A model generated the notes under the pieces. It was given only the letters and a program-made list of their open reading frames with translations, was not told where the DNA came from and did no database searches. Positions 22,331 through 63,420 of a DNA stretch of 64,000 nucleotides are shown here, one piece after another (the stretch's first letter is position 1; each line of letters begins with the position of its first letter). The position numbers were made by a program, and so were the translations under genes. The stretch lies in assembly GCA_016800925.1 (NCBI GenBank), contig JABCPU010000072.1, positions 1 through 64,000 of the forward strand, in the 5' to 3' direction. The stretch comes from Suillus spraguei. Its lineage: Eukaryota > Basidiomycota > Agaricomycetes > Boletales > Suillaceae.

Positions 22331-23092
22331 TCAAGCTGAGAGAGCTGAGTTTGGTCCCTTCTTGGATGGGCGGGTATCGGTAAGCAGACGATGCTCGTAT
22401 TCTTCCGTTACCATACTGATGAGTTCATGTGGACTTAGGGGAGTGCCCATGATCTTTGCAGTGGCCATTATTGATGACAGCATGGGACGGTATGATTCAG
22501 GAAAGAATGCCATAATTATGGCATAAAAGTCTCGGTTCTCGATTCCAGCCCCCATGCTTGCAAGGCACTCTTGTATGCGCAGCATTTCGCTGAAGTGAGC
22601 CTTGATATCTCCATGCTCAGTGCACCTGGTCTCTTGCAAATGCCTCCGTAAGTCCATTTGTACTATCTCTGTTTTGCCCTCATGTGTATCACAGATTTCA
22701 GCCCAGATCTTGGCTGCTGACTCCAATCCCTGTACCTGGAGGTACAAGCAGTTGCTTATGGTACTGAAGAGCTGTTGCCGGACTAGTGAGTCCTTTTGGA
22801 GGTACTTGTCTATTTTCTTGTCCATGGCCTCAATTGCTGCCTCCATGGCCTCCTTCCCATCAGCCTTTATGACCTTGTGGGTCTTTTCTTCAATTTCGAA
22901 GGGGACAGGTCTTACTGCACGACCATCAGCATACCGCATCAAACCTCTCGCACCTATGGCCATCAACGCTTTTCCTTTGTAGGTTATCCAGTTGCTGCCA
23001 TCCTTGGCTAGCTTCAGAATGTTAAAGAGGGTGGAGTTGGTGGAAGGGAGCATGTTATCTGTGGCAGCGTCAGGGCTCATAACCTCTTGCAA
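22331..23092 (-). pseudogene. Copia-type gag remnant
   Basis: A 253-codon frame with the layout of copia Gag (UBN2/DUF4219-like): LKLAKDGSNWITYKGKAL near residue 27, QLFSTISNCLYLQVQGLESA, LRRHLQETRCTEHGDIKAHF and FFPESYRPMLSSI. A stop follows SALSA, although reading on gives more Gag-like Ser/Thr-rich sequence up to the reversed X LTR. No zinc knuckle, protease, integrase or reverse transcriptase remains. Confidence 0.75.
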
Positions 23093-23237
23093 TAAGAGGC
23101 TAATGAGGGCAGGAGAAAGGGTCTATAAGGACAAGGTATGCTATTGCTTTCGTCAGTTAACGCTGATGGTACAAGAATCTATAGACTCACATCTCAGTCT
23201 CTCAAAGAAGAACTGAGATGTTTCTATGCTACGGCGC

Positions 23238-28400: not shown

Positions 28401-31279
28401 TCAATGCTTTTCCACAACGGTCTGCCTCTTCTTTGTAGGAGAAGACACTGTGACATTGATCGGTTCAGCGTCCTGCCGCTCAAGAAGTAAATCGACAATC
28501 GTATTCGTCAGCGCACTGGTGAGTTCCTGGGGACTTTTTCCAGGAGAGGGGACTTCGGGAACGGGTGGTGGGTATCTGGGTGAGTCTTGTTTCGCGGTGA
28601 ACACGAATGGAGTAAGACAGTGTAAAATCTATGGAACAAGAACGCACCAGCGAAAATAGTCCTTAAAATTCTTGCTTTTACGGCACTCAGACGGGCCTGA
28701 ATCTCGGAAGGGCCTTGTTCATCAGAAGAGTCCAGTTTCTCCTGTGCGCGTAATTCCTCGAGTCGGGCCACTTCTTTAAGTAGGAAGGCATTGCGGTGGG
28801 TTTCAGCTTCTTTTTGGACGGGAGTGAGAGGCGTTGGCTCTGATTTGAGAGTAGAGTCTGGAGGTAAAACTTTGACTTGGTTCAGATTACTGTGGGTGGA
28901 CATACATACCTATATCTTGGACTTCATCGCCTGCAACTTGTGTATCACCACTTGCAAGGTTGTCATCTTCGCGTGTGGCTTGGCTATCATCAATAACTCC
29001 TTGATTACCCTCCCCACCTTGTTCAGTCTTTTCTTGCTCTTTTTCTTGCCGTTTCTCTGGAGTATCGTCCTCTCGGTTTGCGCTTTCCGCACCTCGGGCA
29101 TGATCTCCAGTGTCTTGAGTAGTCTCAGTGTTCTCGATGGTACCCTCATTTGCCTTTTGTCCACCCACGTCATCCACATCTCCGATATTTTCGCTTATAA
29201 TTGCCCCTTCTCCTGTGGCAATCTGCGGCTCTTCTTCTCCCGCACCGCCATCGGCACCCTCACCTCTTGAATCTTCCGCGATCTGTTTGCTTGGCCCCTT
29301 CCGATCATTAACGCCTGCACCAAAATTCGCCCCACGCGGATGCACAGGCGACTCGAATTCTTTAAATGGCGGTGGCGGATCGTCATCAATATCAGCACCG
29401 CTGGTTTCTAAAGGATTAAACCGCCCCGTGACAGATTCATCGCACGCTCCTGCACCTGGGAAGATTGGGTCTAGTTCAGTAGATGGAGATTTGAGGCCTG
29501 GCATGGGACGAATTGGGATTGCAGGATCGTAATCGGTAGGGTTTCTGACGGAGGTGGATGTAAGACCTGGGCTTGTACACCTTGACTTGGGTTTGGGGGT
29601 AGGCGTCTTAGATGGGGCAATCGGTGTGTGGGTCCTGGAGAGAGGTGCAGGTGTGGGTGTCTTGGATGGAAGCGCAGGTGCGGGTGTGGTTGAACGGTGC
29701 TCTGCACTGCTATATTTCAAGTCCAGCTGTACATTTATGGTCGTTTTTTCAGTCGGGGGCGCTGGGGAATCGGTGTGTGGATCCTGGAGAGAGGTGCAGG
29801 AGCGGGCGTCTTGAATGGAAGCGCGGGTGCGGGTGTGGTTGAACGGTGCTCTGCACTGCTATATTTTAAGTCCAGCTGCAAGTTCGTGGTTGTCTGTTCG
29901 GTCGGGGGCGCTGGCGTTGGCGGTTTAGGTTGGGGTGCCGAAGCGTGTGCTGGATTTGGGAGAGTTGTGGGCGTCTTGGACGGGGAGAGGGACGTACTCA
30001 ACCCAAGCGCTGAACTAGTGCGCGCACAGTCATTGCCAGAATGTATTGAGGCGTACCGGAGCGCTGAGGCATCTGCCCGCCTGCCTGTATAGCAAACCCA
30101 CCGATTCCAGCAGCACCATCGGACAGGATAATCTGTTCAGGGTGACGAAGCATCGAATGTTGCCATTTGCTGGCTGGCATGGTGTGCTGTCAAACTCGAC
30201 TGGTTACCGAAGGTAGGCTGATTTTGTGCTTGTCCGAATACCGCCGCCAAGCTCGCTTGATGGGGTGGTGCGCGTGCAGGAGATGATCCTGATGGTGGAA
30301 CTGGCGATACATGGACAGAGAGATCAATCTCAGAATCTGGGATGGGAGGGAGAGCTCCCATGTGCGCGCGGGGGGTAGGAGAGATGATTTCGAATGTGGT
30401 TGTTGTGGCTACAGGTGGAGTGAAGAGCACGCTGAGGTCTTGATCTTGTTCCTGCTCCTGTTCTTGCATGTGGGATGGCACGGTGGTATGTACCCGCTCG
30501 TGATCTGGAATCAGTATAATGTCGTGCCTTGAAGAATCGGAATCAGAGCTGGAAGAGAGAAGGGACGGGCGGCGAGAGGGAGAATCTGGGTTGAAAGGAG
30601 GACGGTCAGGGTCGACATCGGTATGAATGAAAGCCGGGGAGGGTCCTAGAAGAACTTCACGTGTAAGAGTATTTGTCACAGAAGGGGTTACTTGGCTGGA
30701 TGGCGAGCCTGATGTTAAGCGTCTCTGTAGGATCGGGGTTGGGGAAGCTGGCGGGGCAGCACGCGTGCTCGACACATTGGTAGACGTTGGAGAACGAGAT
30801 AGAAAACCCGGTACAGGATTTGAGATAGATATGTTTGGGACCTGTATATCATTCTCGATCCTCCATCGTGGCACGGACCTCCTCATCGCTTTGGCATCTT
30901 TCCTTAGCGTCCTGTATGCATGCCTCAGCCCTGCCTGCCGCAACACGCTGGGCGCTATGTCAGCAAGGAGGAGCCCAACGAGTGTCCATGCGCCGGTGAG
31001 GGCAGAACGGACTATCGAGTTGACGAGCAAGAAGTCGATAGCGAACCGAGTAGCAAGGGCGAGATATGCATCGTTGGGATTTCGAGGATTTTTATGGAGG
31101 AAATGGGAAAGCACAAAACCTTCCCAGAGCCCGACGAGTGTACCTTGAATGATAATAATTAGATGAGCCATATTGACATTCTAACAAGACGCACTAGTAA
31201 GCCTAAGATCACTGTCAGTCAAGATATCGATGACGGCGCGTAGGGCGAGCCCAACACCGATGGCGACGACATTATCCAT
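28401..31279 (-). CDS. Gene B: paralogue of gene A, disrupted in the middle
   Basis: The N-terminus aligns residue by residue with gene A (MDNVVAIGVGLALRAVIDIL; TLVGLWEGFVLSHFLHK; TGAWTLVGLLLADIAPS), and exon 1 is also 85 nt (31195-31279, intron 31144-31194). The C-terminus matches too: PPPPFKE, the charged helix KEVARLEELRAQ, and SALTNTIVDLLLERQDAEP. Introns are placed at 28858-28909 and 28586-28647. The middle is Pro/Thr-rich and contains a 148-bp tandem duplication (29621-29914). Because 148 is not a multiple of three, it shifts the frame near 29760; another apparent shift lies near 30138. Gene B is therefore either a pseudogene or carries assembly indels. Function unknown; the N-terminus is predicted to be membrane-embedded. 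Confidence 0.65.
29621..29914 (-). repeat. 148-bp tandem duplication inside gene B
   Basis: ATCGGTGTGTGG starts units at 29621 and 29769. Both contain GGTTGAACGGTGCTCTGCAC and end in the GTCGGGGGCGCTGG block. The encoded peptide KYSSAEHRSTTPAPALP appears twice. Confidence 0.85.
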
Positions 31280-42497: not shown

Positions 42498-45155
42498 ATG
42501 GCTAGCGGAAAAAGGAAGACTCGCAGTACTAATCGGGGTTGGGGGTGGACAGAATTTACAGAACATCCTGGTTACGAGAGTTCGGACCCAGCATCGATGG
42601 TGCAGCAGAAGGCTAAGGTAATCTGCACCAGACAACTCGAGCATTATGTTGCGGCAGAACGGGCTCGTGATGAACTCGAGGTATAATTTGGATCACGGGA
42701 TCATGTACGAGACGAGGATGCGATTAAAGGAGCAGGTAAGCTTAAATTGTACCATCCATCTATTTCTAACACTTTCTATTGTAGTGTGGGCTACTGGCCA
42801 ACATGATCCACAACGAATTTGGCACATCAGTCGTCCAAAAACACTCCTGACGCACATCCGAGACTGTGAGCTACATACGGAAAGTGTTCGTTTGCGTGCG
42901 CGAGCTGACCTTGCGGCTCGCTTCAATCAAGTCACACAACCCATGGCTGCAGTGCACGCTACACTGCCCATACCTCAATTATACGAAGATCCCCCTCAGA
43001 TCGCAGGACCATCATCAGCTGCACATTCAATATATCCTCCGTCTTCTGCTCCACCAGCTCTCGGTCTCTTCATTCTGAGTCTTTCAGTGCCGTCTCCGCA
43101 TGCTAATGGCTCTTCGGACTTGTTATCTTTACCAAGCCCACTGGCATTTGATTCTCGTGCACCCAGTCCCGCAATTTCTGACATCACGCTCCTTTCACTT
43201 CCCTCGAAGCGCCAGCGCCTGACTTCAGGTTCATATCGCTCTGTTTCGCAGCCTGTCACTACTGGGTCTGTCTTGTCACCGCTCGTCGGAGCTCATTGGC
43301 CAACCAGCCAGACTTGGACTGATGCTGACCAGGCAGATTGGGAAACAGGGTTAGCGCGGGTCACTGCGAGTGCAGGATTACCGCTACGATGGGTTGAGAA
43401 TCCAGAGTGGTTGAAACTTTGTGATAGATTTATTCCTCGAGCAAAAGTACCATCAGCAAAGGTTCTCACAAAACGTGTCATGCCTCAAGTTCTCCGCAGT
43501 ATCAAAGCCACTGCAAAAGAAGAATGTTGTGGTGCAGTCAGAACTCTGCAATGTGATGGCTGGACTGGCGAGAATAGCCATCATTTGATTGGTTTTATGA
43601 TGACTGTAAAACGAAAGGTAAGCACTGTGGATGTTTTACAAGCTTTTCCGTCTAGTGGCTGAACCAACTGCTTTGTCTTACTAGTTACATGCTGTCCGTG
43701 TTCACAATGCATCTGGTGACTCACACAATGCCGAAGAACTCCTCAAACAGATTATCGAATCAATAAATCAAGTCGAGAGCGAGTGGGGAGTCATTATTAT
43801 TGCATGCACTACTGATGCATCTGGAGAGTCTCGTAAGGCTCGACGACTACTTCGCACCAAATTTCCGCACTTGGTAACACCTGACTGCCTAGCTCACCAG
43901 GTAGGTTGTCGATGTGAGAATAGTATGTGAGCTAACTTCATCTACTATTCACAGTTTAACCTTATTGTGGGGGATCTCTTCAAAGCCAAGGATGACTATG
44001 GGCAGTATGGTGACCTTGCACAAGAGTTAATTACATGGCTTCGTAGCAAAACCTACGTTCTCGCACTCCTTCGTGAATTGCAAATGTCAACCATGGGAAA
44101 GACATTGAGCATCATTCGCGCTGTTCTCACTCGATGGTTATCACATTATTTCATCAGGAAATTCACACATTCCTTAACATGCTTAATCAGCTTAACTCAC
44201 TTATCTCAAAACTTGTTTGCTCTCTCTCACATCATTCACCTGGCATATCTTATATTTTTTGAGTGCGAAATACAATAAAACATGTATATTAATATATCTC
44301 AACTTTTTTTTTCTGAATTCATTCACATTGAAATTTTGGACAAGTAGATTCAATTTCACCAAGGCAGTTAAGTGTAAATAAGTCCGCATAAGGGCACGTC
44401 AAGGAATGTGTGAATTTCCTGATGTCGCGCAAAGGAACAGGTAATATATTTACTAGACTCGGAGCTGTATTCCTCAATATCTAACCTATTTCTACCCATA
44501 GGGCACACCAGTTGATCCTCTCGATATTTGGGATGGATTTTCACACAGCAGCTCCGAAATCAAGCCCCTCCAGAAAATTGCTCAGCGAATTCTTTCGATC
44601 TGTCCAAATTCTGCTTCATGCGAGCGTCTTTTCAGTATCTTTGGCACAATCCTGACGAAATGGTGAAATCGGCTTTCCACTCAGAATCTTATGCTACTTG
44701 CAGAGTTAAAGATGTACCTCCACGAGGAACATGTTCGCGCAGGCTCCGTCAAGAAGCGTCTCAAACGGTGCTACTGCCAGAATACCACTGAGGCTAACCC
44801 TACAGAGGGTGACACAGATGCCTTTGGTGATGATTCCCAGCAGACGAGCAATGAAGTTCGTGAGCACAGAGGGATACGGCAAATTGCTGCACACTTGATT
44901 CAAGCTGTCGAGGATGAAGAGACATTCACCATCTCCGAGATTACGGAGGCAACTACCAATCCGTCAGACTTCCAGCAAATTCCTATCAAGGATCTCTTTG
45001 ATTTTTCTCGTGCTCAAGATTGGCTAGGATCCTTCTACCAAACAGCCATACGAGGCTTAGATGCGGAGGTTGAGTTATACGAGCTGTTGGATTTGGATGC
45101 CGATGGTATTGACGACCCAGAATTTCCGCACGCAGATGAGATTTTGGACGAGTAA
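42498..45155 (+). pseudogene. hAT transposase, degenerate
   Basis: ATG 42498 (MASGKRKTRST) starts a multi-exon transposase with RVTASAGLPLRWVENPEWL, AVRTLQCDGWTGENSHHLIGF, ACTTDASGESRKARRLL and FPHLVTPDCLAHQ. The hAT C-terminal dimerisation region follows: PVDPLDIWDGF, ILSICPNSASCERLFSIFG and LSTQNLMLLAELKMYL. Decay is clear. A TGA at 44664 stands where Arg (W-R-N-R-L) is expected, a 271-bp MITE replaces or interrupts the central catalytic part after AVLTRW, and the sequence normally between them is absent. The C-terminal acidic tail ends at 45155. Confidence 0.75.
44153..44423. mobile_element. MITE inside the hAT transposase
   Basis: A 271-bp AT-rich insert has perfect 23-bp terminal inverted repeats: 44153-44175 starting ATCAGGAAATTCACAC and 44401-44423 ending GTGTGAATTTCCTGAT. 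There is no coding capacity. A CAGG-type end would fit a hAT-derived MITE; no clear target duplication is visible. Confidence 0.8.
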
Positions 45156-45337
45156 AATGACTGACGAGTTTCTTGGTGATGCGGGCCTTAGCCAATCAGA
45201 TACGATTATATAATATTTTCTCTCGGACTCCTGGTACCATAGCTGTTCACGTTTACCTGTCGACATAGTGACGTTCACCGGTGAACATTCACTGACTTTT
45301 GTGAACGTTCGGCGACCGGACGAACACTGGTACATAA

Positions 45338-45416
45338 TGATCAAGACACAAAACTCACCTTGATCAATAATGCTACGGTAGCATTATTGATCAAGGTGAG
45401 TTTTGTGTCTTGATCA
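45338..45416. repeat. Perfect 39-bp inverted repeat (hairpin) with 1-nt spacer
   Basis: Arms 45338-45376 and 45378-45416 are exact reverse complements (starting TGATCAAGACACAAAACTCA). The right arm sequence also occurs at 42328-42366 near the left end of the hAT element, and that match extends to 42373 against the reverse of 45331-45376. Confidence 0.9.
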
Positions 45417-46958
45417 GTGGATCTCCTCAAATACATCCACAGATGCCTGGACGACAGGAAGAAGAATCAACTTATTTGGCTGCATGGCACGGCGGGTGTC
45501 GGAAAGTCTTCTGTTGCATTTACAGTTGCTGAGAAGATGAGAGATCTAAAAGTGACCGAAGAAACGAATGTCGAAAAGCGGCTTGGGGGAATTTTTTTCT
45601 CGCGCGAGAAAGCGGAACGTCGCACGGCTAGATATTTTTGTGCAACGCTTGTATACCAGCTTGCCACCAATTTTACAAGCATCCGCAAGGATGTGAACAG
45701 AGTTATCCGCGACAATCCCGCTCTACTAGATTCCAATACACCTCTCTGCGAGGCTCTTTTTCTCAAACCTCTCCGATGGCTTCGACCCAGATTGCGCGGG
45801 TGTCCACCTTTGTCGTTTGTTGTCGATGCCATTGATGAATGCCCATCCAAACCGAGTTTACCGATCTGATCCTTTCCCTTGCGCGGGCTCTCCGCGATCC
45901 TGATCTGCCCGTTACCCACATTCTGCTCATGAGTCGCTCGGAATCGCATATTAACAAAGTATTCCAGAACGGCGAGGTGCGCCCGTTGGTGCGCGAGATA
46001 CCAGTAAGAACTTCTGGGAGGGTGGCATGATCTCATTAGACGGTGCAGACGTTGACAACGATATCTGTATGTTCTTGCGGCATTCCTTCGGAGAGCTGGA
46101 AAATCGCCATCCAAATTTCCCTCAACCGTCGGAGGATGACCTTGCAAAGCTGGCGAGCCGAGCGGGCAGACGTTTCATTGTGGCATCTACGATGATGAAG
46201 ACAATGATCCCCGCGATCAGTTGCAGCTGATGCTCGACCCGACGAGCAAGCTACTGCCAGGAACAGAGGTGTACAAGTTATACGACCTTATCCTCTCCAC
46301 TTGTGCCGATCCCAAGCGGGACACCTGCATTTGTCCCTCGTTGCTGCCCTCACAGACCCCCTGCCGATCTCGCAAATCTCAATCCTTCTTAACCCTGGTC
46401 TGGGTAGGGATGTGCAGACAACACTGATACAACTACGGTCTATCATGGATATCTCGATAGATAGCACTCTCCCCGTGAATTTCTATCACTCGTCCATTCG
46501 CGACTATGTTTCCGACCCCTCAAATTGCAGCCTTCCTCAAATACACATTGCATCACCTCACCTTGCCAGATTTCTTGATGCTTCCGATTTTCTTGGCATT
46601 GAAACACTAGCATCATTCTACCTCTGAAATACTAGCCAACTCCCTACAGCCAGGGAGATAGTTCATGCTCTGAATGCCTTTGAGAATTTCGCAAACGAAG
46701 CAGTGGAGCGCAGTCGAACAGCTTCCGACCCTCTGCAGTACGCCTGTCACAACTGGGCCATACATCTCTCGCGTGCCCCCAATCCATGGGATGATCCGCT
46801 CAAATATATACCAGACTTTTTTGAATGATCATATGACCCGATGGCTGGAAACGGAGTGGTGTTTGAAGGGTCTGCGGTCTTGCCTTGTCATATTATCTGA
46901 GGGGCAGAAAATTTTGAAGGTATGTTATGTTTCAATGATTGAAGGTAGTCATAACTGA

Positions 46959-48854: not shown

Positions 48855-51800
48855 ATGAGCGACGATCACTGTCAGTATTCCATCTCTTATCTCGCATGCT
48901 CCCTCATATCTTTGACAGCCCTTGAAGGAAGTTGGGCGAGATTGTCCCAGGTCGCTGTTACAGGTGCTCAGTATAACTCCCCTGAACGTCATCCCCACCC
49001 GAAATGTTTGCAAGGAACCCGGGTAGATCTTCTCAAATACATCTACGGGTGCCTGGACGATCCAGATAAGAATCAGCTTATTTGGCTGCATGGCACGGCT
49101 GGTGTCGGAAAGTCTTCTGTCGCGTTTACAGTCGCTGAAAAGATGAGAGGTCTAAAAGTGACCGAAGAGACGAATGTCGAGAAGCGGCTCGGGGGAACAT
49201 TCTTTTTCTCGCGCGAGAATACGAAACGTCGCACGGCTGGATATTTTTTTCCGACGCTTGTCTACCAGCTTGTCACCAATTTTCCAAACATCCGGATGGA
49301 TGTGAGCAGAGTTATCCGCGACAATCCCGCTCTGCTAGATCCTAACACACCTCTCTGCGACCAGATGGAGGCTCTTTTTCTCAAACCTCTCCGATTGCTT
49401 CAATCCAGATTGCGCGGGTGTCCACCTTTGTCGTTTGCTGTTGATGCTCTTGATGAATGCACATCCAAAGACGAGGTTGCCGATCTGATCCTTTCCCTTG
49501 CGCGGGCTCTCCGTGATCCTGATCTGCCCGTTACTCACATCCTACTCACGAGTCGCTCGGAATCGTATATTAGCGAAATCTTTCAGAACGACGACGTGCG
49601 TGCGTTGGTGCGCGAGATACCCGTGAGAACTTCTGGGGAGGGTGGTATGATCTCATTAGATGGCGCAGACGTTGATAACGACATCTGTACGTTCTTGCGG
49701 CACTCCTTTACAAAGCTGGGAAGTCGCCATCGCGACTTCCCTCAGCCATCGGAAGGTGACCTTGCGAAGCTGGCGAGCCGAGCGGGAAGACGTTTTATCG
49801 TGGCGTCTACGATGATGAAGTTTATCAGCGACGATGAAGACAACGATCCCTGCGATCAGTTGCAGCTGATGCTCGACCTGACGAGCAAGCTGTTACCAGG
49901 AACAGAGGTGTACAAGTTATACGACCTTATCCTCTCCACATGTACCGACCCCAAGCGGGCATACCTGCACTTGTCCCTCGTTGCTGCCCTCGCAGACCCT
50001 CTACCCATGTCGCAAATCTCAACACTTCTTGGCCCTAGGTTGGGCGTGGATGTGCAGACAACGCTGATCCAGCTACGGTCTGTCATGGATATCCCGACAG
50101 ACAGTGCCCTCCCCGTGAATATCTATCACTCGTCCATTCGCGACTATGCTTCCGACCCGTCAAACTGCAGCCTCCCTCAAGTACGCAACATCGCATCACC
50201 TCACTCCCTACTGGCACGTTCCTCTCTCCGATTGATGATGAAGATTCCAAAAAGCACGGCTCTCTTGGATGCACTCTCAGAACTGAAGAAGCAAAGCAAG
50301 GCTATGCAACCCGAGGACCCCCATAAGTTAAAAGAGTCATTAGCGTTTCTTGTTCAGCCACCCGAACCACTATCAGCTGTCATGTGCATGCTGTGGCTTC
50401 GAGGAGATCGCACTTCAGATTTACTATCTTGGCTGGAGACTGTAGATGGACGTGCCTGGCTACAGATCCAGGAAGGACGATGCTGGTTGCAGACCCAAGA
50501 GGGACGAGACTGGTTGCAGATCCTGAGAGGACGAGACTGGTTGCAAATCCAGGGAGGGCGAGACTGGCTGCAGACGCAGGGAGGACAAGACTGGGTGCAG
50601 ACCGAGGGAGGACGAGACTGGCTGCAGACCCAGGAAGGACAAGATTGGCTGCAGGCCAAGGGAGGACAAGACTGGCTGCAGACCCAAGGAGGACAAGACT
50701 GGCTGCAGACCGAGGGAGAACAAGACTGGCTGCACACCAAGGGAGGACAGGAGTGGCTGCAGACCCAGGGAGGACAAGACTGGCTGCAGAACGAGGAAGG
50801 ACGAGAGTGGCTGCAGACTCAGGGAGGACGAGACTGGCTGCAGACTAACGGAGGACGAGACTGGTTGCAGACCCAAGGAGGACGAGACTGGCTGCAGACC
50901 TGGAGAGGACCAGGCTGGCTGCAGACCAAGGGAGGACAAGACTGGCTGCAGAGCGAGAGAGGACAAGACTGGCTGCAGAGCGAGAGAGGACAAGACTGGC
51001 TGCAGAGCGAGAGAGGGCACGACTGGCTGCAGAACAAGGGAGGACGAGACTGGTTGCTGACCGAGGGGGGACAAGACTGGCTGCAGACCCAGGAAGGACC
51101 AAGCCGGCTGCAGACCCAGGAGGAACCCAGTCAGGTGCAGACCCAGGAAGGACCAAGCCGGTTGCAGACCCAGGAGGCACCCAGCCAGCTGCAGACCCAG
51201 GAAGGATCAAGCCGGTTGCAAACCGAGGGAGGACAAGACTGGCTGCAGACACGGCGAGGACGAGTGTGGTTGCGCACCCCAGAAGGACGAGACTGGTTGC
51301 AGACCCAGGCAGGACGAGACTGGCTGCAGACCCAGGCAGGACAAGACTGGCTGCAGACCTGGCAAGGAGAAGATTGGCTGCAGACCGAGCGAGGACGAGA
51401 CTGGCTGCAGACACAGGGAGGACAGGACTGGCTGCAGACCCAGAGAGGACGAGACTGGCTGCAGACCTGGGAAGGACGCCAAAGCTGGCTGCAGACCGAG
51501 GGAGGACGAGACTGGGTGCAGACCCAGGAAGGACGAGACTGGCTGCGGACCTGGGAAGGACGAAGCTGGCTGCGGACCCAGGGAGGACGAAGCTGGCTGC
51601 AGACCCAAAGAGGACAAGACTGGCTGCAGACCTGGGCAGGACGACAGTGGGTGCAGACCCAGGAAGGACAATACTGGCTGCAGACCCAGGGAGGACGAGG
51701 CTGGCTGCAGACCCAGGGAGGACAAGACTGGCTGCAGACCTGGGAAGGACGACAAAACTGGCTGCAGACCCAGGCAGGAGAAGACTGGCTGCAGACCCAG

Positions 51801-53372
51801 GCAGGACGAGACTGGATGCAGACCCAGGCAGGAGAAGACTGGCTGCAGACCCAGGCAGGAGAAGACTGGCTGCAGACCCAGGGAGGACGAGACTGGCTGC
51901 AGACCCAAGGAGGACAAGACTGGCTGCAGACCCAGAGAGGACGAGACTGGCTGCAGACCTTGGAAGGACGACAAAGCTGGCTGCAGACCAAGGGAGGACG
52001 AGACTGGGTGCAGACCCAGGAAGGACGAAGCTGGCTGCAGACCCAGGAAGTACAAGACTGGCTGCAGACCCAGGAAGGACGAGGCTGGCTGCAGACCCAG
52101 GAAGGACAAGACTGGCTGCAGACCTGGGAAGGACGACAAAGCTGGCTGCAGACCAAGGGAGGACGAGACTGGCTGCAGACCCAGGCAGGACGAGACTGGA
52201 TGCAGACACAGGCAGGACGAGACTGGCTGCAGACCTGGGAAGGAGAAGACTGGCTGCAGACCGAGCGAGGACGGGACTGGCTGCAGACCGAGCGAGGACG
52301 AGACTGGCTGCAGAGCTGGAAAGGACAACGAGGCTGGCTGCAGACCCAGCAAGGACAGGCCTGGCTGCAGACTCAGGGAGGACGAGACTGGCTGCAGACC
52401 CAGGGAGGACAAGACTGGCTGCAGACCTGGGAGGGACAACAAGCCTGGCTGAAGATCCAGCCTGGACTAGCCTGGCTGCAGACCCAGGAAGGACGAGACT
52501 GGCTGCAGACCCAGCGAGGACAAGACTGGCTGCAGACCCAGCGAGGACGAGACTGGCTGCAAACCCAGGAAGGGCGGGAATGGCTGCAGACCCAAGAAGC
52601 ACGAAACTGGTTGCAGACCCTGAGCGGACAAGACTGGCTGCAGACCTGGGAAGGACGAAACTGGCTGCAGACCCTGAGCGGACAAGACTGGCTGCAGACC
52701 TGGGAAGGACGAAACTGGCTGCAGAAATGGGAAGGACGATACTGGTTGCAGACCCAGGGAGGACAACAGTGGCTGCAGAGCAAGGGAGGACGAGGCTGGC
52801 TGCAGACCCGGGGAGGACGAAGCTGGTTGCAGACTCCCCACGGTCAAGCGTGGCAGTCCACTCCTGCGGCTTCCGTCTGGGTAACAGTGGAAGAATTCTT
52901 GAAGACATCAGAAGCAATTAATGAATACATCATTACCGGCGACACGCCTTTAATGCCAGTTTTTCGAGCAATCCAGCAGTTCAAGACCTTGCCAGATTTC
53001 TTGATGTTTCCGGTTTTCCTGGCATTGAGACACCAGCATCATTCCACGTCTGCAATACCAGACAGCCTCTTATCAACCAGGGAGATAGTTCATGCGATGG
53101 ATGCCTTTGAGAGTTTTGCAAACGAAGCACTGGGACGCAGTCGAACAGCTCCCGACGCTCTCAAGTACGCCTGTCACAACTGGGCCTCACATCTCTCGCG
53201 TGCATCCAATCCATGGGATGGCCCGCTCAAAGATATATTCCAGGCTTTTTGGAATGATCATATGATTCCCTGGCTGGAAATGGAGTGGTGCTTGAAGGGT
53301 CTGCAGTCTTGCCTGGTCATCTTATCTGAAGGGCAGAAATCTTTGAAGGTGTGTTTCAACGATTCAAGGTAG
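48855..53372 (+). CDS. NACHT (NLR-like) receptor with ~88 Trp nonapeptide repeats
   Basis: 1505-aa uninterrupted frame. Residues ~35-75 (AQYNSPERHPHPKCLQGTR, then VDLLKYIYGCLDD) and the P-loop GTAGVGKSS (80-88) mark a basidiomycete NACHT receptor. Walker B is SFAVDALDE (193-201), followed by HILLTSRSE (229-237) and the winged-helix/superhelical region up to ~525 (YHSSIRDY at ~424). Residues ~533-1335 are about 88 tandem copies of a 9-residue unit, WLQTQGGRD, in which Trp is almost fixed and residues 5, 6, 8 and 9 vary. The C-terminus (~1336-1505) returns to the family's helical part (YACHNWASHL, WLEMEWCLKGL). By analogy with fungal NLRs the NACHT module would oligomerise on ligand sensing by the repeats. 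No effector domain is visible, and the start is uncertain because a GT...AG segment (48875-48918) follows the ATG. Confidence 0.85.
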   Translation: MSDDHCQYSISYLACSLISLTALEGSWARLSQVAVTGAQYNSPERHPHPKCLQGTRVDLLKYIYGCLDDPDKNQLIWLHGTAGVGKSSVAFTVAEKMRGLKVTEETNVEKRLGGTFFFSRENTKRRTAGYFFPTLVYQLVTNFPNIRMDVSRVIRDNPALLDPNTPLCDQMEALFLKPLRLLQSRLRGCPPLSFAVDALDECTSKDEVADLILSLARALRDPDLPVTHILLTSRSESYISEIFQNDDVRALVREIPVRTSGEGGMISLDGADVDNDICTFLRHSFTKLGSRHRDFPQPSEGDLAKLASRAGRRFIVASTMMKFISDDEDNDPCDQLQLMLDLTSKLLPGTEVYKLYDLILSTCTDPKRAYLHLSLVAALADPLPMSQISTLLGPRLGVDVQTTLIQLRSVMDIPTDSALPVNIYHSSIRDYASDPSNCSLPQVRNIASPHSLLARSSLRLMMKIPKSTALLDALSELKKQSKAMQPEDPHKLKESLAFLVQPPEPLSAVMCMLWLRGDRTSDLLSWLETVDGRAWLQIQEGRCWLQTQEGRDWLQILRGRDWLQIQGGRDWLQTQGGQDWVQTEGGRDWLQTQEGQDWLQAKGGQDWLQTQGGQDWLQTEGEQDWLHTKGGQEWLQTQGGQDWLQNEEGREWLQTQGGRDWLQTNGGRDWLQTQGGRDWLQTWRGPGWLQTKGGQDWLQSERGQDWLQSERGQDWLQSERGHDWLQNKGGRDWLLTEGGQDWLQTQEGPSRLQTQEEPSQVQTQEGPSRLQTQEAPSQLQTQEGSSRLQTEGGQDWLQTRRGRVWLRTPEGRDWLQTQAGRDWLQTQAGQDWLQTWQGEDWLQTERGRDWLQTQGGQDWLQTQRGRDWLQTWEGRQSWLQTEGGRDWVQTQEGRDWLRTWEGRSWLRTQGGRSWLQTQRGQDWLQTWAGRQWVQTQEGQYWLQTQGGRGWLQTQGGQDWLQTWEGRQNWLQTQAGEDWLQTQAGRDWMQTQAGEDWLQTQAGEDWLQTQGGRDWLQTQGGQDWLQTQRGRDWLQTLEGRQSWLQTKGGRDWVQTQEGRSWLQTQEVQDWLQTQEGRGWLQTQEGQDWLQTWEGRQSWLQTKGGRDWLQTQAGRDWMQTQAGRDWLQTWEGEDWLQTERGRDWLQTERGRDWLQSWKGQRGWLQTQQGQAWLQTQGGRDWLQTQGGQDWLQTWEGQQAWLKIQPGLAWLQTQEGRDWLQTQRGQDWLQTQRGRDWLQTQEGREWLQTQEARNWLQTLSGQDWLQTWEGRNWLQTLSGQDWLQTWEGRNWLQKWEGRYWLQTQGGQQWLQSKGGRGWLQTRGGRSWLQTPHGQAWQSTPAASVWVTVEEFLKTSEAINEYIITGDTPLMPVFRAIQQFKTLPDFLMFPVFLALRHQHHSTSAIPDSLLSTREIVHAMDAFESFANEALGRSRTAPDALKYACHNWASHLSRASNPWDGPLKDIFQAFWNDHMIPWLEMEWCLKGLQSCLVILSEGQKSLKVCFNDSR
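50448..52850 (+). repeat. 27-bp tandem repeat array encoding WLQTQGGRD units
   Basis: About 88 near-identical 27-bp units (core GACTGGCTGCAGACCCAG), with about six 30-bp units that add one residue (e.g. GRQSWLQT). Synonymous and non-synonymous differences are concentrated at a few positions. The three reverse frames are also largely open, purely because the unit lacks stop triplets. Confidence 0.92.
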
Positions 53373-54905
53373 CCACAACTGATGTCACCTTATGTTCGCA
53401 GTGCATGACGTGACGCCCTGTTCGGAGTTCTCATCTTCAACCTAGACTCTTGAGTCGTGGACGCGCAGCCCGGCTCTGCACTCACGGCGTTGAACCTATT
53501 TGTTGACACCAACCTCTTGAGGCTTGAGCTCTCGAGCAGTGGCATGTTGAAAAAGCCAGTTCGGACTATCGTACAGGTCATTCACCACCCTACTTTGATG
53601 TATTTTTGCATTTTAACGATGCTTTGCTCATCCTGTAATGTATGATATTTCATAGCCCATCACATCGACAGTACTGTATAAAAATAAATCGACTGAAAAC
53701 CTTACCATCTGACTACAATCGATTACTTAGCCATTGATAAATGAATCCACAGGCGGCGCCTGATAGAATCTGAAACTTGTTGGCCCCACTGCTAATCATC
53801 TCGACGCCCTTCTTCGACAGCCGGCCGTGTGGACAGACAATATTTTGCGTCCATTGCTCTGTGTCACTGACATCGTGTTGCTTTGAGAGTTTAGCGGGAC
53901 GCGAGCCACGGCCACTGGTCACTTTGTTCTTCCCGTGTTCGGCGCTTCAGGCAAGGCAAATGCATTCGCAAGATAACCTTGACGTTACGATGTCAGACAT
54001 GGAAGATATACTTCTCGTTCGAAGGATGGATCGTATACTATAAGAAATAAATGCTCTCTGATAGAGTTCAGCGTTCTGGGAAAAGGTATCAACGCATGCT
54101 CGACTTCTCTCCAAATCAAAGTTACCTCTGCGCCGTAAAGGTCCTTTCCCAAGTTCCATTGAACGATATTGAGCCATTGCTGTGGAGTCTGGCGAGAATA
54201 GTGGACACCAGATGTGGATTAGATGTTGCGAACGACGGCTTCAGGATCCGCTGAGAAACGTTCAGGTTAGTGGAACGTCCGCTCGATATGCGGCGCCTGC
54301 AAAAAAGTAAAGACGTTAACTCGAATACGTTTCTCATGACAGGGGAAGTTGGTGGCTGCAAATTCATTGGAGTCCACTGAGAAATGTCTAAGTCGGTGAT
54401 CCGGGAATGGATGATCTGCTTGACATGAGGGTCGTTGATATGTTAGGGAATTTGAAATTCGATGTCCCCTGGGACTCTTCACTTAACGGCATGTTTCGCT
54501 AAACTGTGACGGTGCGTAATCTAGTTACCTCTGAGCGCTCGATGTGGTTCTGTCCAGCGTCTGGCTGTACAGTAGTGTAGCCGCACACTGCAGCTTCGTG
54601 TCCTCCTGCAAGCACTGGACGGCGAGCGCCTGTTCGTTCAACTCCATTCTACAACAATCCAGCAAGTTTTCCGTACCAGAAATAGATTGAAATATCCATC
54701 CGTCCATTTCATCTTCGCACTCTCCATCAACTGACAGCTGGGTCGTTTCGGGACTAAGTCTTGTCACAACTTAAAAACTTTGACTCATATCTTCGTACGT
54801 CGTCCCTCCAAATAACTATCGTAGATGTTATTTCTAACCACAACCTCGAACCTAACTAGTACTTTCAGTTGGTCCATTGCAACTCGCATATCACAACCTT
54901 CATCA
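53373..54905 (+). other. Inter-receptor spacer with duplicated blocks
   Basis: Contains the shared 3' flank, a block similar to 58090-58290 (GCCACTGG(T/A)CACTTTG, CATCGTGTTGCTTTG), a relic of the LLDMRRLQ-type sequence at ~54280-54345, and the conserved upstream blocks from 54590. No independent gene is supported. Confidence 0.45.
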
Positions 54906-57754
54906 ATGAGTGATGATCAATGTCAGTGCTTCCATCTCTTATACCTCGCATGCTCCCTCACATCTTTGACAGCTCTTGAAGGAAGTTGGGTGAGATTGTC
55001 CCAGGTCGCTGTTAAAGGTGCTCAGTATAACTCTCCTGAACGTCATCCCCACCCGAAATGTTTGGAAGGAACCAGGGTAGATCTTCTCAAATATATCTAC
55101 GGATGCCTAGACGATCCAGAGAAGAATCAGCTTATTTGGCTGCATGGCACGGCTGGTGTCGGAAAGTCTTCTGTCGCGTTTACAGTCGCTGAAAAGATGA
55201 GAGATTTAAAAATGACCGAAGAGACAAATGTCGAAAAGCGGCTAGCGGGAACATTCTTTTTCTCGCGCGAGAAAACAGAACGTCGCACGGCTGGATATTT
55301 TTTTGCGACACTTGTCTACCAGCTTGCCACCAACTTTCCAAACATCCGGAAGGATGTGAGCAGACTTATCCGCGACAATCCCGCTCTACTAGATCACAAC
55401 ACACCTCTCTGCGACCAGATGGAGGCTCTATTCCTCAAGCCTCTCCGGTGGCTTTGACTCAGATTGCGCGGGTGTCGACCTTTGACGTTCGTTGTCGATG
55501 CCCTGGATGAATGCATATCCAAACCCGAGCTTACTAATCTCATCCTTTCCCTTGCGCGGGCTCTCCGTGATCCTAATCTGCCGGTGACCCACATTCTACT
55601 CACGAGTCGCTCAGAATTGCATATTAGCAAAGTCTTTGAGAACGACGAGGTATGCCGGTTGGTGCGCGAGATACCTGTAAGAACTTCTGGGGAGGGTGGC
55701 ATGATCTCATTAGACGGCGCAGACGTTGACAACGACATATGTACGTTCTTGCGGCATTCCTTCAAAGAGCTGCGAAGTCACCATCCCGATTTCCCTCAGC
55801 CATCGGAAGGTGACCTCGCGAAGCTGGCAAGCCGAGCGGGCAGACGTTTCATTGTGGCATCTACAATGATGAAATTCATTATCGACGTTGAAGACGATGA
55901 TCCCCATGATCGGCTGCAATTGATGCTCAGGCTAACGAGCAAGCTGCTACCAGGAACGGAGGTGTACAAGCTATACGATTGTATCCTCTCCACGTGTGCC
56001 GATCCAAAGCGGGCATATCTACACTTGTCTCTCGTTGCTGCTCTCACAGAGCCTCTCTGCCTATCTCGCAAATGTCAACACTTCTTGGCCCTGGATTGGG
56101 CAGGGATGTACATACAACGCTGATACAGCTACGGTCTGTCATAGACATCCCTACAGACAGCACTCTCCCCGTGAGTCTCTCTCACTCGTCCATTCGCGAC
56201 TATGTTTCGAACCCCTCAAACTGCGGCCTCCCTCAAGTAAACGATATGGTATCACGTCACTCCCTGCTCGCTGGTTCCGCTCTTCGCTTGATAATGAAAG
56301 AGATTCCAGAAAGCACAGCCCTCTTGGATGCACTCACAGAACTGAAGAAGCAATGCAATGCAATGCAACCTGAGGACCCCCAGAAGTTACAAGACTCATT
56401 AGCGTTCCTTGTTCAGCCACCAGAGCCACTGTCAGCTGTCATCTGTATGCTGTGGCTTCGGGGAGATCGTACTTCAGAATTACAGTCTTGGCTGGGGACT
56501 GTGGATGGGCGTGCTTGGCTGCAAATCCAGGCAGGACAAGACTGGTTACAGACCCAAGGAGGACGAGACTGGTTGCAGGCCCCGAGCGGACGAGACTGGC
56601 TGCAGACGCAAGACGGACGGGAGTGGCTGCAGACACGTGGAGGACGAGACTGGCTGTGGACCCAGGGAGGACGGGAGTGGCTATGGACCCAGGGAGGACG
56701 AGAGTGGTTACCAACACAGGGGGGACAAGAATGGTTGCAGAGCCAGGGAAGTCAAATGTGGCTACCGGCCCAGAGAGGTCGGGTGTGGTTGCCGACCCTG
56801 GGGGGACAAGTATGGCTGCCAACCCTAGGAGGTCGGGAGTGGCTGCCGACCCTAGGAGGACGGGAGTGGTTGCCAACCCAAGAAGGACGAGAGTGGCTGC
56901 AGAGCCAGGGAGGACGAGGCTGGCTGCAGACTCAGAGAGGACGAAACTGGCTGGGGACCCAGGGAGGACGAAACTGGCTGCAGACCCGGGGAGGACACGA
57001 GTGGCTGCAAACTGAGGGAGGACGAGAGTGGCTGCGGACCTTGGGAGGACGAGAGTGGTTGCGCACCCCAGAAGGACGAGACTGGCTGCGAACCTCAGGA
57101 GGACGAGAGTGGCTGCAGACCTCGGGAGGACGAGACTGGTTGCAGACCCCGGGAGGACGAGACTGGCTGCAGACCCAGACAAAACGAGACTGGCTGCAGA
57201 CTCCCCATGGTCAAGCATGGCAGTCCACGCCTGCGGCCTCCGTCTGGGTGACGATGGAAGAATTCTTGAGGATATCAGAAGCAATCAACGAGTATATCAT
57301 TACCAGCGACGCGCCTTTGCTGACAGCTTTTCAAGTAATCCAGCAGTTCAAAACCTTAGAAGATTTCTTGATGTTACCGGTTTTCCTGGCATTAAGACAC
57401 CATCAACATTCCACCTCTGCAATACCAAACAGCCTTCTCCTACCAGACAGGGAGATAATTCATGCTATAATTGCCTTTGCGAGTTTCGCAAGCGAAGCAC
57501 TGGAACGCAGTCGAATGGCTTCTGACGCTCTCAAGTACGCCTGTCACAACTGGGCCGTACATCTCTCGCATGCCCCATATCCATGGGATGACACGCTCAA
57601 TCATATATTTCAGATTTTTCGGAATGATCATATGATTCCCTGGCTGGAAATGGAGTGGTGTTTGAAGGGTCTGCGGTCTTGCCTTGTCATCTTATCTGAT
57701 GGGCAGAAGTTTGTGAAGGTGCGTGTTTCAATGACTCAAGGTAGCCACAACTGA
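54906..57754 (+). pseudogene. NACHT receptor copy 3, ~26 repeats, premature stop and frameshift
   Basis: Same architecture as the intact receptor: ATG 54906, NSPERHPHPKCLEGTR, GTAGVGKSSVAF, LTFVVDALDE, HILLTSRSE. A TGA at 55455-55457 interrupts the frame where copy 1 has CGA (Arg). A two-base CT insertion near 56053-56058 shifts it again (PLPISQ region). Beyond these the frame is open to 57754. About 26 repeat units (56508-57215) show more variety than the intact copy, including WLPTLGGRE and WLWTQGGRE types. The C-terminal helical part is complete (YACHNWAVHL, WLEMEWCLKGLRSCLV). Two lesions are few for a pseudogene of this size, so decay is recent or some strains may carry an intact allele. 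Confidence 0.8.
56508..57215 (+). repeat. 27-bp repeat array, ~26 units (copy 3)
   Basis: Same 9-residue periodicity as the main array but with Pro or Trp replacing Gln at position 3, and Leu or Ser at position 5, in a block in the middle (56700-56900). Confidence 0.85.
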
Positions 57755-58960: not shown

Positions 58961-59458
58961 TGCCAGCCTTGACTCAGATCGAGGATCTATCAACTGAGTA
59001 ACATAATCCACAAATACTAATGTTGATCAATCCAGCGCAGTTATCCTAGGGGATTCACATATATTTAGTTCACCTCTGAGTACCATCATCGACATGGTTC
59101 TACCTGATTCACTAACTGTTGTGTAATCATGGCGGTGATAGTGTGGCGGGCTGCACAGCAACCTCGTGTCCTCCTGCAAGCACTAGACGCCGTCTCGAAA
59201 GCTTACTCGTTCCACAACAATCCAGCAAGTTTTCTGTACCAGAACTGATTGAAATAACATTCCGTCTTCATTACGCTTCACACTCTCCATCAACCAACAG
59301 CTGGGTCGTTGTGCGACCAAGTCTTACAAGTTTCGATTCAGATCTTCGTACGTCGTTCGTCCAGAAAACTATCACCCAGATTATTTCTAACCACACTCTC
59401 AAACCTGACCAGTACTTTCAGTTGGTTCATTGCTTCTCGCATATCATAATCTTCATCA

Positions 59459-62400
59459 ATGAACGACGACCACTGTCAGTATTCCATCTCTTATCTCTCG
59501 CATGCTCCCTCACATCTTTGACAGCCCTTAAAGGAAGTTGGGCGAGATTGTCCCAGGTCGCTGTTAAAGGTGCTCAGTATAACTCCCCTGAACGTCATCC
59601 CCACCCGAAATGTTTGGAAGGAACCCGGGTGGATCTTCTCAAATACATCTACGGATGCCTGGACGATCCAGATAAGAATCAGCTTATTTGGCTGCATGGC
59701 ACGGCTGGTGTCGGAAAGTCTTCCGTTGCGTTTACAGTCGCTGAAAAGATGAGAGATCTAAAAGTGACCGAAGAGACGAATGTCGAAATGCGGCTCGGAG
59801 GAACATTCTTTTTCTCGCGCGAGAAAACGGAACGTCGCACGGCTGGATATTTTTTTGCCACACTTGTCTACCAGCTTGCCACCAGATTTTCAAGCATTCA
59901 GGAGTATGTGAGCAGAGTTATCCGCGACAACCCCGCTCTACTAGATCCCGACACCCCTCTCCGCGACCAGATGGAGGCTCTTTTTCTTAAACCTCTCCGA
60001 TCGCTTCAACCCAGATTACACGGCTGTCTGCCTTTGTCGTTTGTTGTTGATGCTCTTGATGAATGTACATCCGAAGACGAGGTTGCCGATCTCATCCTTT
60101 CCCTTGCGCGGGCTCTCCGTGATCCTGATCTGCCCGTTACTCACATCCTACTCACCAGTCGCTCGGAATCGCATATTAGCGAAGTCTTTCAGAATGACGA
60201 CGTGCGTGCGTTGGTGCGCGAGATACCCGTGAGAACTTCTGGGGAGGGTGGTATGATCTCATTAGATGGCGCAGACGTTGATAACGACATCTGTACGTTC
60301 TTGCGGCACTCCTTTACAAAGCTGGGAAGTCGCCATCGCGACTTCCCTCAGCCATCGGAAGGTGACCTTGCGAAGCTGGCGAGCAGAGCGGGAAGACGTT
60401 TTATCGTGGCGTCTACGATGATGAAGTTTATTATCAACGATGAAGACAGTGATCCCCGCGACCGGTTGAACCTGATGCTTGACCTGACGAGCAAGCTGCT
60501 ACTAGGAACAGAGGTGTACAAGTTATACGACCTCATCCTCTCCACATGTACCGACCCCAAGCGGGCATACCTGCACTTGTCCCTCGTTGCTGCCCTCGCA
60601 GACCCACTGCCCATATCGCAAATCTCAACACTTCTTGGCCCTGGGTTGGGCAGGGATGTGCAGACAACGCTGATTCAGCTACGGTCTGTCATGGATATCC
60701 GACAGACAGTGCCCTCCCCGTGAATATCTATCACTCGTCCATTCGCGACTATGTTTCCGACCTGTCAAACTGCAGCCTCCCTCAAGTACGCGATATCGGA
60801 TCACCTCACCCTCACACCCTACTCGCACGTTCCTCTCTCCGGTTGATGATGGGGATTCCAAAAAGCACGGCTCTCTTGGATGCACTCTCAGAGCTGAAGA
60901 AGCAAAGCAAAGCTATGGAACCTGAGGACCCCCATAAGTTAAAAGAGTCATTAGCGTTTCTTGTTCAGTCACCCAAACCACTGTCAGCTGTCATCTGTAT
61001 GCTATGGCTTCGAGGAGATCGCAGTTCAGATCTACAATCCTGGCTGGGGACTGTGAATGGGCATGCCTGGCTGCAGACCCAAGGGGGACGAGACTGGTTA
61101 CAGATCCTGAGTGGACAAGAGTGGATGAAGACCCAAGGAGGACGAGAGTGGATGAAGACCCAGGGAGGACGAGAGTGGCTGCAGACCCAGGGAGGACGAG
61201 AGTGGCTGCAGACACAAGGACCAGACTGGCTGTGGACAGAGGGAGGACAAGACTGGATGAACACAAGGGAAGGGAACTACTGGCTGTCATGCCTGGTAAA
61301 TGACCGGATGCAGGCCCGGGAAGACGATACCGTATGCAGACTCCGAGAGGACAAGACCTGCTGCAGACACGAGACCGTATGCAGACTCAGGGAGGACAAG
61401 ACTGGCTGCAGACCCAGGAAAAACGAGACTGGCTGCGGACCCAGGGAGGACGATGCTGGCTGCGGACCCAGGGAGGACGAGACTGGCTGCAGACCCAGCA
61501 TGGGGAAGACTGGCTGCAGACCCAGGAAGGACGAGACTGGCTGCGGAAACAGGGTGGACTGCAGACCAAGGGAGGACGAGACTGGCTGTTAGGCCAAGGT
61601 GGGAGAGACTGGCTGCAGACCCAGGAAGGACGAGACTGGCTGCAGACCCAGGAAGGACAAGACTGGCTGCAGACCCAGGCAGGACAAGACTGGCTGCAGA
61701 ACGAGGGAGGACGAGATTGGCTGCAGACCGAGGAAGGACAAGACTGGCTGCAGACCCGGGATGGACGATACTGGCTGCAGACCCAGGCAGGACAAGACTG
61801 GCTGCAGACCCGGGGTGGATTGCGGACCCAGGGCGGACGACACTGGCTGCAGACCCAGGCAGGACAAGACTGGCTGGAGACTTCGGAAGCACTAGACTGG
61901 CTGGAGACCCAGGGTGGGCAAGACTGGTTGCAGACCCCGTATGCGCGACAATGGCTTCAGACCCTGAATGGGCAATACTGGCTAGACACCCTGGAAGGAC
62001 GAGACTGGCTGCGGAACCTGGGTGGACGAGACTGGCTGTTGAGCCAGGGTGGGGGAGAGTGGCTGAAGACCTGGATGGGACGACAGTGGCTGGAGAGCCA
62101 GCAAGGACGAGACTGGCTGCAGACCGAGGGAGGAGGAGACTGGCTGCAGACCCAGGCAGGACGAGACTGGCTGCAGACACAGGATGGACAAGACTGGCTG
62201 CAGACCCAGGGAGGACAAGACTGGCTGCAGACCCATGGAAGACGAGCCCGGCTGCAGACCCAGGAAGGACGAGACTGGCTGCAGACCCAGGGAGGACGAG
62301 ACTGGCTGCAGACCCAGGGTGGGCAAGACTGGGTGCAGACACCGTATGGGCGACAATGGCTTCAGTCCCCGTGTGGGCGAGACTGGCTGCAAACTCCCCA

Positions 62401-62895
62401 CGGTCAAGCATGGCAATCAACTCTGCGGCCTCCGTCTGGGTAACAATGGAAGAATTTTCGAGGATATCGGAAGTAATTAACGAATATATCGTTACCAGTA
62501 ACGCATCTTTACTGCCAGCTTTTCAAGTCATCCAGCATCTCAAGACCTTGCCAGATTTCTTAATGTTTCCAGTTTGCCTGGCATTAAGACACACCGTCTC
62601 TGCAAAGCAGGCTCTCTATTTACCAGACAGGGAGATAATCCATGCTATGAATACGTTTGAGAGTTTCGCCAACGAAGCACTGGAACGCAGTCAAGCAGCT
62701 TCCGGCGCCCTCAAGTACGCCTGTCACAACTGGGCCATACATCTCTCGCGTGTCCTCAATCCATGGGATGACACGCTCAATCATATATTCCATGCTTTTT
62801 TGAATGGTCATATGGTCCCCTGGTTGGAAATGCAGTGGTGCTTGAAGGGTTGCGGTCTTGCCTTGCCATTTTATCTGAAGGGCAGAAATTTGTGT
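59459..62895 (+). pseudogene. NACHT receptor copy 4, ~50 repeats, several single-base indels
   Basis: Collinear with the intact receptor: GTAGVGKSSVAF, LSFVVDALDE, HILLTSRSE, YHSSIRDYVSD, array, YACHNWAIHL. Differences from the intact copy that break the frame are: a 2-base longer GT...AG segment (59479-59524), one missing C near 60700 (MDIPTDS context), one missing G near 61323 inside the array, one missing C near 62424 (STPAASVW context) and one missing base near 62850 (CLKGLRS context). An unusual block at 61205-61330 includes WMKTQGGRE units and a non-repeat insertion (NYWLSCLVNDRMQ). The pattern of single-base deletions could be real decay or consensus errors. Confidence 0.78.
61047..62415 (+). 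repeat. 27-bp repeat array, ~50 units (copy 4)
   Basis: Same unit as the other arrays. It contains variant units (WMKTQGGRE, WLETQGGQD, WLQTPYGRQ) and one deletion that shifts the frame. Confidence 0.85.
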
Positions 62896-63420
62896 AGGTG
62901 TGTTTTAATCATTCAAGTAGCCACAACTGATGTCGCCTTATGTTCCATGATATTTAGTCCATGATGTGACCCCTTGGAATTATCTCGTCTTCATTCCGGA
63001 CCCTCAGGCTTGAGCCGTTGACGCGCAGCCCGGCATTATTATGTAGTACTCACCAATGTCCCCTCTGCGTCCGAGCTTGTTACTTTTTAATTCCAAAAGC
63101 CGCAGCCAGAAGCCTTCCCCCACCGCACCACGAAAGCGGGGCTTTCATGATGAAATACCTCACTCAGCTTTCTCTCATTCCCATTCACGCTCTTCTCGCC
63201 GTCTTGCAAGTGTGCACATTCAATAAAATTAGTATTGCATCTTCTCCTTCTATTAATTTTACCTACTTCGTCAGACATCCCCACGGCCATCGTACAAAGC
63301 TTAAAGTCCTTTGGGGTCGAAGACCCTACCTATATCGGACATATGTAGCCATCTTTGACGCACGCTCCCGGTTTCAATCGTCCGTACAATATTATTTCTG
63401 TATGCAACTCTTTCCTACAT
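62896..63420. other. Downstream flank of the cluster
   Basis: Begins with the shared 3' flank (TCCATGATGTGACCCC). A plus-strand frame at 63148 starts with a hydrophobic leader (LTQLSLIPIHALLAVLQV) but has no other support. Confidence 0.35.

Follow-up and report, generated by a model that had tools for sequence, protein, structure and literature searches.

According to excerpts of PMC10197012, the sensors of fungal NLR receptors are most often built from ANK, TPR or WD40 repeats, with units 20 to 40 residues long. In Podospora, the NLR repeats combine high internal conservation with concerted evolution and hypervariable interaction sites (in the available parts of PMC4986451), and diversifying selection has been described for them in excerpts of both PMC4986451 and PMC12222747. 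Searches of openly licensed PMC text listed no paper recognizable, from its title or the opening of its abstract, as describing a nonapeptide-repeat NLR, and the terms looked for in PMC9815663 and PMC4986451 do not occur there.

Here, we describe such a gene in a stretch of 64,000 nucleotides of DNA, analysed as a whole and called the window throughout, and place it among its relatives in the same genome, in other fungi and in bacteria. We lean, by a little more than an even chance, towards a Suillus-type cytosolic NLR in which an inserted nonapeptide array would serve as a diversifying recognition surface and signal through its NACHT domain.

Architecture of the window gene

Pfam matches the predicted protein of the window gene (Table 1) with both PF24883 (74.5 bits against a cut-off of 24.8, E value 1.5e-20) and PF05729 (37.1 bits against a cut-off of 26.7, E value 3.7e-9), which together span residues 67-243. 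With the P-loop GTAGVGKS at residue 80 and the Walker-B-like motif VDALDE at residue 196, the protein has the NACHT/NPHP3_N ATPase, both nucleotide-binding motifs included, that is expected of a fungal NLR. The motif YHSSIRDY at residue 424 presumably marks the end of a winged-helix-like part. At the other end, no N-terminal effector is recognizable: among 55 fungal relatives in which the anchor motif is present, 47 show at most 30 residues ahead of it, a count taken from 56 rows of which one is a bacterial chance match, and one to which upstream exons may add.

Table 1. Positions in the window of the NACHT-nonapeptide gene, its parts and the neighbouring paralogs.
Feature	Position	Strand	Description and basis
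NACHT-nonapeptide NLR gene	48855..53372	+	One open frame of 1505 codons; putative start codon; Pfam
NPHP3_N/NACHT ATPase core	49053..49556	+	P-loop 49092-49115, Walker-B-like motif 49440-49457; Pfam and motif location
YHSSIRDY part and lead-in to the array	50124..50429	+	Motif location; helical in the model of paralog L011
Array of ~89 nonapeptides	50430..52850	+	Consensus W-L-Q-T-x-G-G-R/Q-D; Tandem Repeats Finder and W-L-x-T anchors
Conserved C-terminal region, ~170 residues	52851..53369	+	Helical in the model of the paralog; last ~60 residues resemble post-NACHT helices of other NLRs
Paralog 2	54825..57754	+	Stop codon interrupts NACHT (ORFs 54825-55457 and from 55464); ~25 units at 56516-57201
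Paralog 3	59119..62964	+	NACHT 59659-60162; array 61067-62391 split over different reading frames
Degenerate paralog	44691..46627	+	NACHT fragments scattered over several frames, with no visible array

The array occupies residues 526-1332. Tandem Repeats Finder reports a 27-bp unit in 87.7 copies at 50448-52834 with 80% matches, and our count of roughly 89 units is the sum of 82 found by a regular expression on W-L-x-T anchors, six that lie inside four 18-residue gaps and one 27-residue gap, and the leading unit at residue 526. A DNA pattern of three units matches 46 times in the window, 25 times in this array and otherwise in two other arrays, with no match in 100 dinucleotide-preserving shuffles. 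Six units of the window array are ten residues long; the extra residue falls between G7 and the next W in all six, and W stands at position 5 in five of them. Searched with Pfam, the window protein shows no WD40, ANK, TPR or LRR, and no WD40 family even at E ≤ 1, so that the WD40 repeats of an HNWD-type receptor are not found there. The preliminary description of this DNA had proposed a complete NACHT module, some 800 residues of W-based nine-residue repeats behind it and a C-terminal helical part, and all three were recovered in our analysis. That the frame is open says little by itself about coding, since the array can also be read through in other frames and on the minus strand (for example, over 690 residues on the latter).

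Elsewhere in this genome, the NACHT of other NLRs leads into a helical-looking segment that reads L-S-Y-x-x-R-F-W ... F-W-L-E, and at one locus (L044) WD40-like repeats, identified by eye, come after it. The last 60 residues behind the nonapeptide array align to this segment by hhalign with an E value of 3e-4 and a probability of 38, compared to 0.034 and 1.5 for a reversed control, with 21 family sequences as input against six of the eight NLR loci (L039 and L040 did not fit the cutting motif). By eye, the sequence ahead of the array resembles the start of the same segment. Because the end behind the array aligns to the segment and the sequence before it resembles the segment's start, we take the array, on moderate evidence, to be an insertion into the helical segment behind the ATPase, ahead of the last helices of that segment. 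The array had at first been assigned to the sensor position of an NLR; it does lie in a sensor-like place, but as an apparent insertion rather than as a C-terminal swap for WD40. One Suillus lakei protein (P0134) was considered as an example of WD40 swapped for the array among receptors of one NACHT clade. We discarded it because in this protein WD40 precedes NACHT on the N-terminal side and the gene model looks fused.

The nonapeptide unit in fungi and bacteria

The genome search covered 86.2 Mb in 1,256 contigs, where the scoring of 31 out of 625 first-look candidates yielded 94 match rows. By our own grouping of these rows, the family occupies 31 gene-sized places, the window gene included, and the number of distinct genes is smaller because some loci are near-identical pairs. 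At least three units lie in the frames of each of 29 loci (L009-L037), 17 of which have a frame of at least 900 codons, and 19 frames of at least 900 codons carry arrays. NPHP3_N gives 150 match rows, all above its cut-off (150 of 366 candidates scored), which indicates a genome rich in NLRs. The window itself also holds, at 3729-4379 on the minus strand, a NACHT fragment of another NLR, of the type that by eye bears WD40-like repeats in L044. Elsewhere in it, an ORF at 22334-23122 (minus strand) resembles a retrotransposon gag start by eye, a 149-bp tandem duplication with 88% matches lies at 29613-29914, and two ORFs, at 5460-7613 (plus strand) and 30140-31180 (minus strand), have starts that look related by eye.

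A query of the protein database with the array and C-terminus returned 92 matches, many of them environmental proteins and a few bacterial (Bifidobacterium, RTX-type). The named fungi among them all belong to Suillus or Rhizopogon, both Suillineae (Boletales), and other fungi may be missed because only the 7,993 candidates sharing most words were scored. Judged from these matches, the assembly probably comes from Suillus itself or from a near relation. Three protein searches yielded 142 proteins altogether, 112 of which have at least five W-x8-W steps; the remaining 30 comprise bacterial RTX-type proteins along with NACHT models that are short or cut off. The array receptor reported from this DNA is real as an architecture but no single oddity, having 31 places in this genome and relatives in Suillus and Rhizopogon. 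In one Suillus discolor gene model (P0133), pre-array sequence is joined to post-array sequence and the array skipped as if it were an intron; this may reflect either an error of gene prediction or a genuine splice variant.

We derived unit statistics from 725 units of exactly nine residues in the 19 long frames, with W and the spacing imposed. Leucine stands at position 2 in 96% of them, threonine at position 4 in 85% and glycine at position 7 in 88%, with positions 3, 5, 6, 8 and 9 variable, giving W-L-x-[T/S]-x-x-G-x-x as the core of the unit.

This core is also found outside fungi. Four surface proteins of Bifidobacterium sp. ESL0690/ESL0769 (P0078, P0093, P0094 and P0095) match the window array; in P0078 and P0094 the array is C-terminal, ahead of a wall-anchor-like tail, and among 50 distinct units from the four proteins G7 is present in 96% and T or S at position 4 in 96%. 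The three-unit DNA pattern occurs in 13 stretches of genome contigs and one viral stretch, and four of these look by eye like real coding sequence. One is a bacterial contig (L048:2-3055, plus strand) that encodes a subtilase (PF00082, 5e-33) with a long C-terminal array of W-L-x-S/T-P-x-G-Q-D nonapeptides (39 W-x8-W steps). The others, L050 (Clostridia), L058 (Endomicrobiia, beside DnaJ) and L059 (viral contig), hold shorter or looser runs, as does the protein P0096. The other ten of the 14 stretches were set aside, as by eye they look like other frames or simple repeats, and a search of genome contigs with the bacterial array matched a pattern in 18 stretches and confirmed no relative. The arrays of Bifidobacterium and L048 are like the fungal array in their core, W1-L2-[T/S]4-G7, and in their period of nine, but they are bacterial, commonly have Pro at position 5 and come without NACHT; they may share an origin with the fungal array or have converged on it.

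A regular solenoid or stack of turns had been suggested for the array from its period. This is plausible, but two AlphaFold2 runs disagree: a whole paralog (L011) is modelled with one short helix per unit and the array alone as a beta-solenoid, and beta-solenoids are a known class of AlphaFold2 artefact. Over the modelled helix window, the conservation moment of the own-genome units is 5.5 at 100 degrees compared to 0.7 at 170 degrees. Conservation periodicity nevertheless fails to separate helix from strand, because between 10% and 59% of nine-position shuffles reach the 100-degree moment: 10% for the own-genome units, 15% for a database set that left out only P0078 and P0093-P0096 and so holds a few bacterial RTX-protein units, 10% for Bifidobacterium and 59% for L048.

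Foldseek with the whole-paralog model found CED-4 as the best match and the only one below 1e-3 (E value 3e-4), and in a second structural look at this model STAND proteins tied with many other AAA+ ATPases; both comparisons covered mainly residues 41-349 and barely included the array. The array-only model gave a single match under an E value of 1e-3, 6n2b, with a TMq of 0.47. When solved structures were searched by sequence, the P0078 array led to designed propellers, subtilases were among the matches listed for L048 (60 of 160), and P0096 gave no relevant match.

These observations leave room for a broader and more tentative reading, in which W-L-x-[T/S]-x-x-G-x-x would be an undescribed minimal solenoid occurring in fungi, bacteria and a viral contig, with a two-turn helix per nine residues capped by T/S, and in a large family of Suillus-type NLRs a recognition scaffold in which every short helix would display a few changeable residues and the read-out would be tuned by gain or loss of nine-residue modules. 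We regard it as possible rather than probable.

Constraint, array dynamics and rival explanations

The preliminary description had noted strong similarity between units with variation at few positions and had proposed comparing substitutions position by position. We ran this comparison as pN/pS, counting synonymous and non-synonymous differences between the units of 18 arrays (the 19 long frames minus L025, which is nearly identical to L023). As a descriptive measure, with core positions picked on the same data and units that are not independent of each other, pN/pS is lower at positions 2, 4 and 7 than at positions 5, 6, 8 and 9 in 18 of 18 arrays. The strong similarity of units and their variation at a few positions are supported. 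Because synonymous changes do occur at positions 2, 4 and 7, these are probably kept by amino-acid constraint and not by mere homogenisation. In the window array, pN lies above pS at positions 6 (0.46/0.18), 8 (0.32/0.17) and 9 (0.36/0.24) but not at position 5 (0.39/0.56). When all arrays are pooled, pN exceeds pS at position 8 only (0.385 compared to 0.310).

Arrays also differ from each other by whole units. Two pairs of loci on different contigs share 98.9% identity over 6.5-7 kb and resemble either the two haplotypes of a single individual or copies that arose by recent duplication. L031 and L032 are distinguished by two 27-bp indels within the array; L023 and L025 by one 27-bp indel in the array, inside which L023 also shows a Trp-to-stop difference. 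In L016 and L022, the 5' parts are 99% identical and the arrays strongly rearranged. The mean DNA identity of units is 0.73 within an array compared to 0.67 between arrays (plain means). Array differences in assemblies may be artefacts of misassembly from short reads, as pointed out in the available part of PMC12222747. By analogy, the constraint by position together with the differences in whole 27-bp units fits a fast-diversifying recognition array like the Podospora NLR repeats.

A first rival to such a recognition surface, which we consider unlikely, is that the array serves as a rod for spacing or oligomerisation, by which distance or avidity would be set, and that no specificity lies in its variation. 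Array length would suit this role, as it varies widely, from 11 counted units (in a frame-broken gene) to 84 among 18 arrays, and in the Bifidobacterium surface proteins, where a stalk role is natural, the C-terminal stretch is built from the same core. A plain spacer would, however, have no need of an excess of pN over pS at positions 6, 8 and 9 of the window array and of the reverse at positions 2, 4 and 7, although relaxed constraint could mimic this pattern.

Less probable again is that the array represents a minisatellite growing within a gene family in decay, tolerated there but mostly without function. Signs of decay are present, as 12 of the 29 loci have no frame of 900 codons and none of the window's three further paralogs is intact, two being broken genes that have an array and one a remnant; moreover, the variable positions are near-neutral. 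What such a minisatellite would not explain is the amino-acid constraint at positions 2, 4 and 7, found in every one of the 18 arrays, together with 19 array frames of at least 900 codons and a core that is the same in Suillus and Rhizopogon.

The remaining rival comes from Pfam, in which the RTX profile (PF00353) matches the window array at 8e-49, with 163.5 bits against a cut-off of 23. A piece of 22 units still reaches PF00353 at 1.9e-19, along with Cyt-b5 barely over its cut-off, and residue order matters for the RTX match because none of nine rearranged or shuffled versions of the piece reaches this family. Among these controls, three of eight periodic ones (the reversed piece and two column permutations out of seven) score above cut-off with other, unrelated Pfam families, at 8e-13 in the best case, and the fully shuffled one reaches no family above cut-off. 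Pfam significance for such repeats is therefore inflated and unreliable, though the PF00353 match exceeds the controls.

The defining unit of RTX is GGxGxDxUx, with calcium-binding residues. We aligned 827 units to it by setting G7 on the G at RTX position 4, which places T4-x5 where RTX has GG; G7 is then present in 719 units, D9 at the calcium position in 359, GG in one, and GG, G and D together in none. We rejected RTX membership on these missing residues, and do not assign the array to RTX because they are missing and because the significance of such repeats is inflated. The initial view that no described family matches the array has to be amended, as a Pfam profile does so above cut-off, but in the absence of the residues that define it. 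The likeness consists of the nine-residue period, a G-x-D/E-x-L spacing and the profile match, whereas the array differs from RTX in its T-x at GG, its unconserved D, its fixed W and a protein that is probably cytosolic.

We consider it improbable that an RTX-type calcium-binding beta-roll has been put to use within an NLR, given the missing residues and the lack of a PF00353 match in P0078 and the L048 subtilase, which share the core, and despite a weak similarity in sequence to RTX domains of solved structure (window array 5e-5, profile 9e-5), the source name of the relative P0022 ('Ca2+-binding RTX toxin-like protein') and the beta array-only model with its weak match to an RTX block (E value 0.12, probability 0.57, TM 0.40, rmsd 3.5 over 94 columns). 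The RTX calcium-binding label that databases attach to family members is, we argue, misleading here.

Proposed function and comparison with known receptors

We return to the array as a recognition surface. By analogy with the Podospora NLR repeats, the array most likely recognises something, with its variable outward residues and its number of units setting specificity and NACHT relaying the event. In the presumably expressed protein, the conserved W1, L2, T4 and G7 would build a repetitive solenoid-like rod from which residues 3, 5, 6, 8 and 9 would face outward, differing from unit to unit. Unequal exchange would add and remove 27-bp units while the loosely constrained outward residues vary, so that the surface would differ between copies and between haplotypes. 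A ligand bound on the array would release NACHT for ATP exchange and oligomerisation, and the oligomerised NACHT would in turn give a signal of the non-self or cell-death type.

A nine-residue unit on a fixed Trp would be a recognition scaffold unlike ANK, TPR or WD40, in fungi for which little is known of how they recognise non-self or symbiotic partners; Suillus-type fungi are ectomycorrhizal. If the array does form a solenoid, it would make an appealing repeat for protein design and would put the bias of AlphaFold on short repeats to the test.

Among known receptors, the HNWD/het-d and het-e NLRs of Podospora anserina (NACHT-WD40) are, like the product of the window gene, NACHT receptors with many near-identical tandem units and, in probable likeness to it, have hypervariable positions and unit combinations that differ between alleles, as described in the available parts of PMC12222747 and PMC4986451. 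Their WD40 unit lies in a C-terminal sensor, whereas the nine-residue unit of the window gene lies ahead of the last helices. The WD40-type NLRs of the same genome (L044) have NPHP3_N/NACHT and probably the same post-NACHT helices in common with the array family, but in L044 WD40-like repeats, seen by eye there and not in the array family, stand behind those helices, whereas the nonapeptide repeats stand between them.
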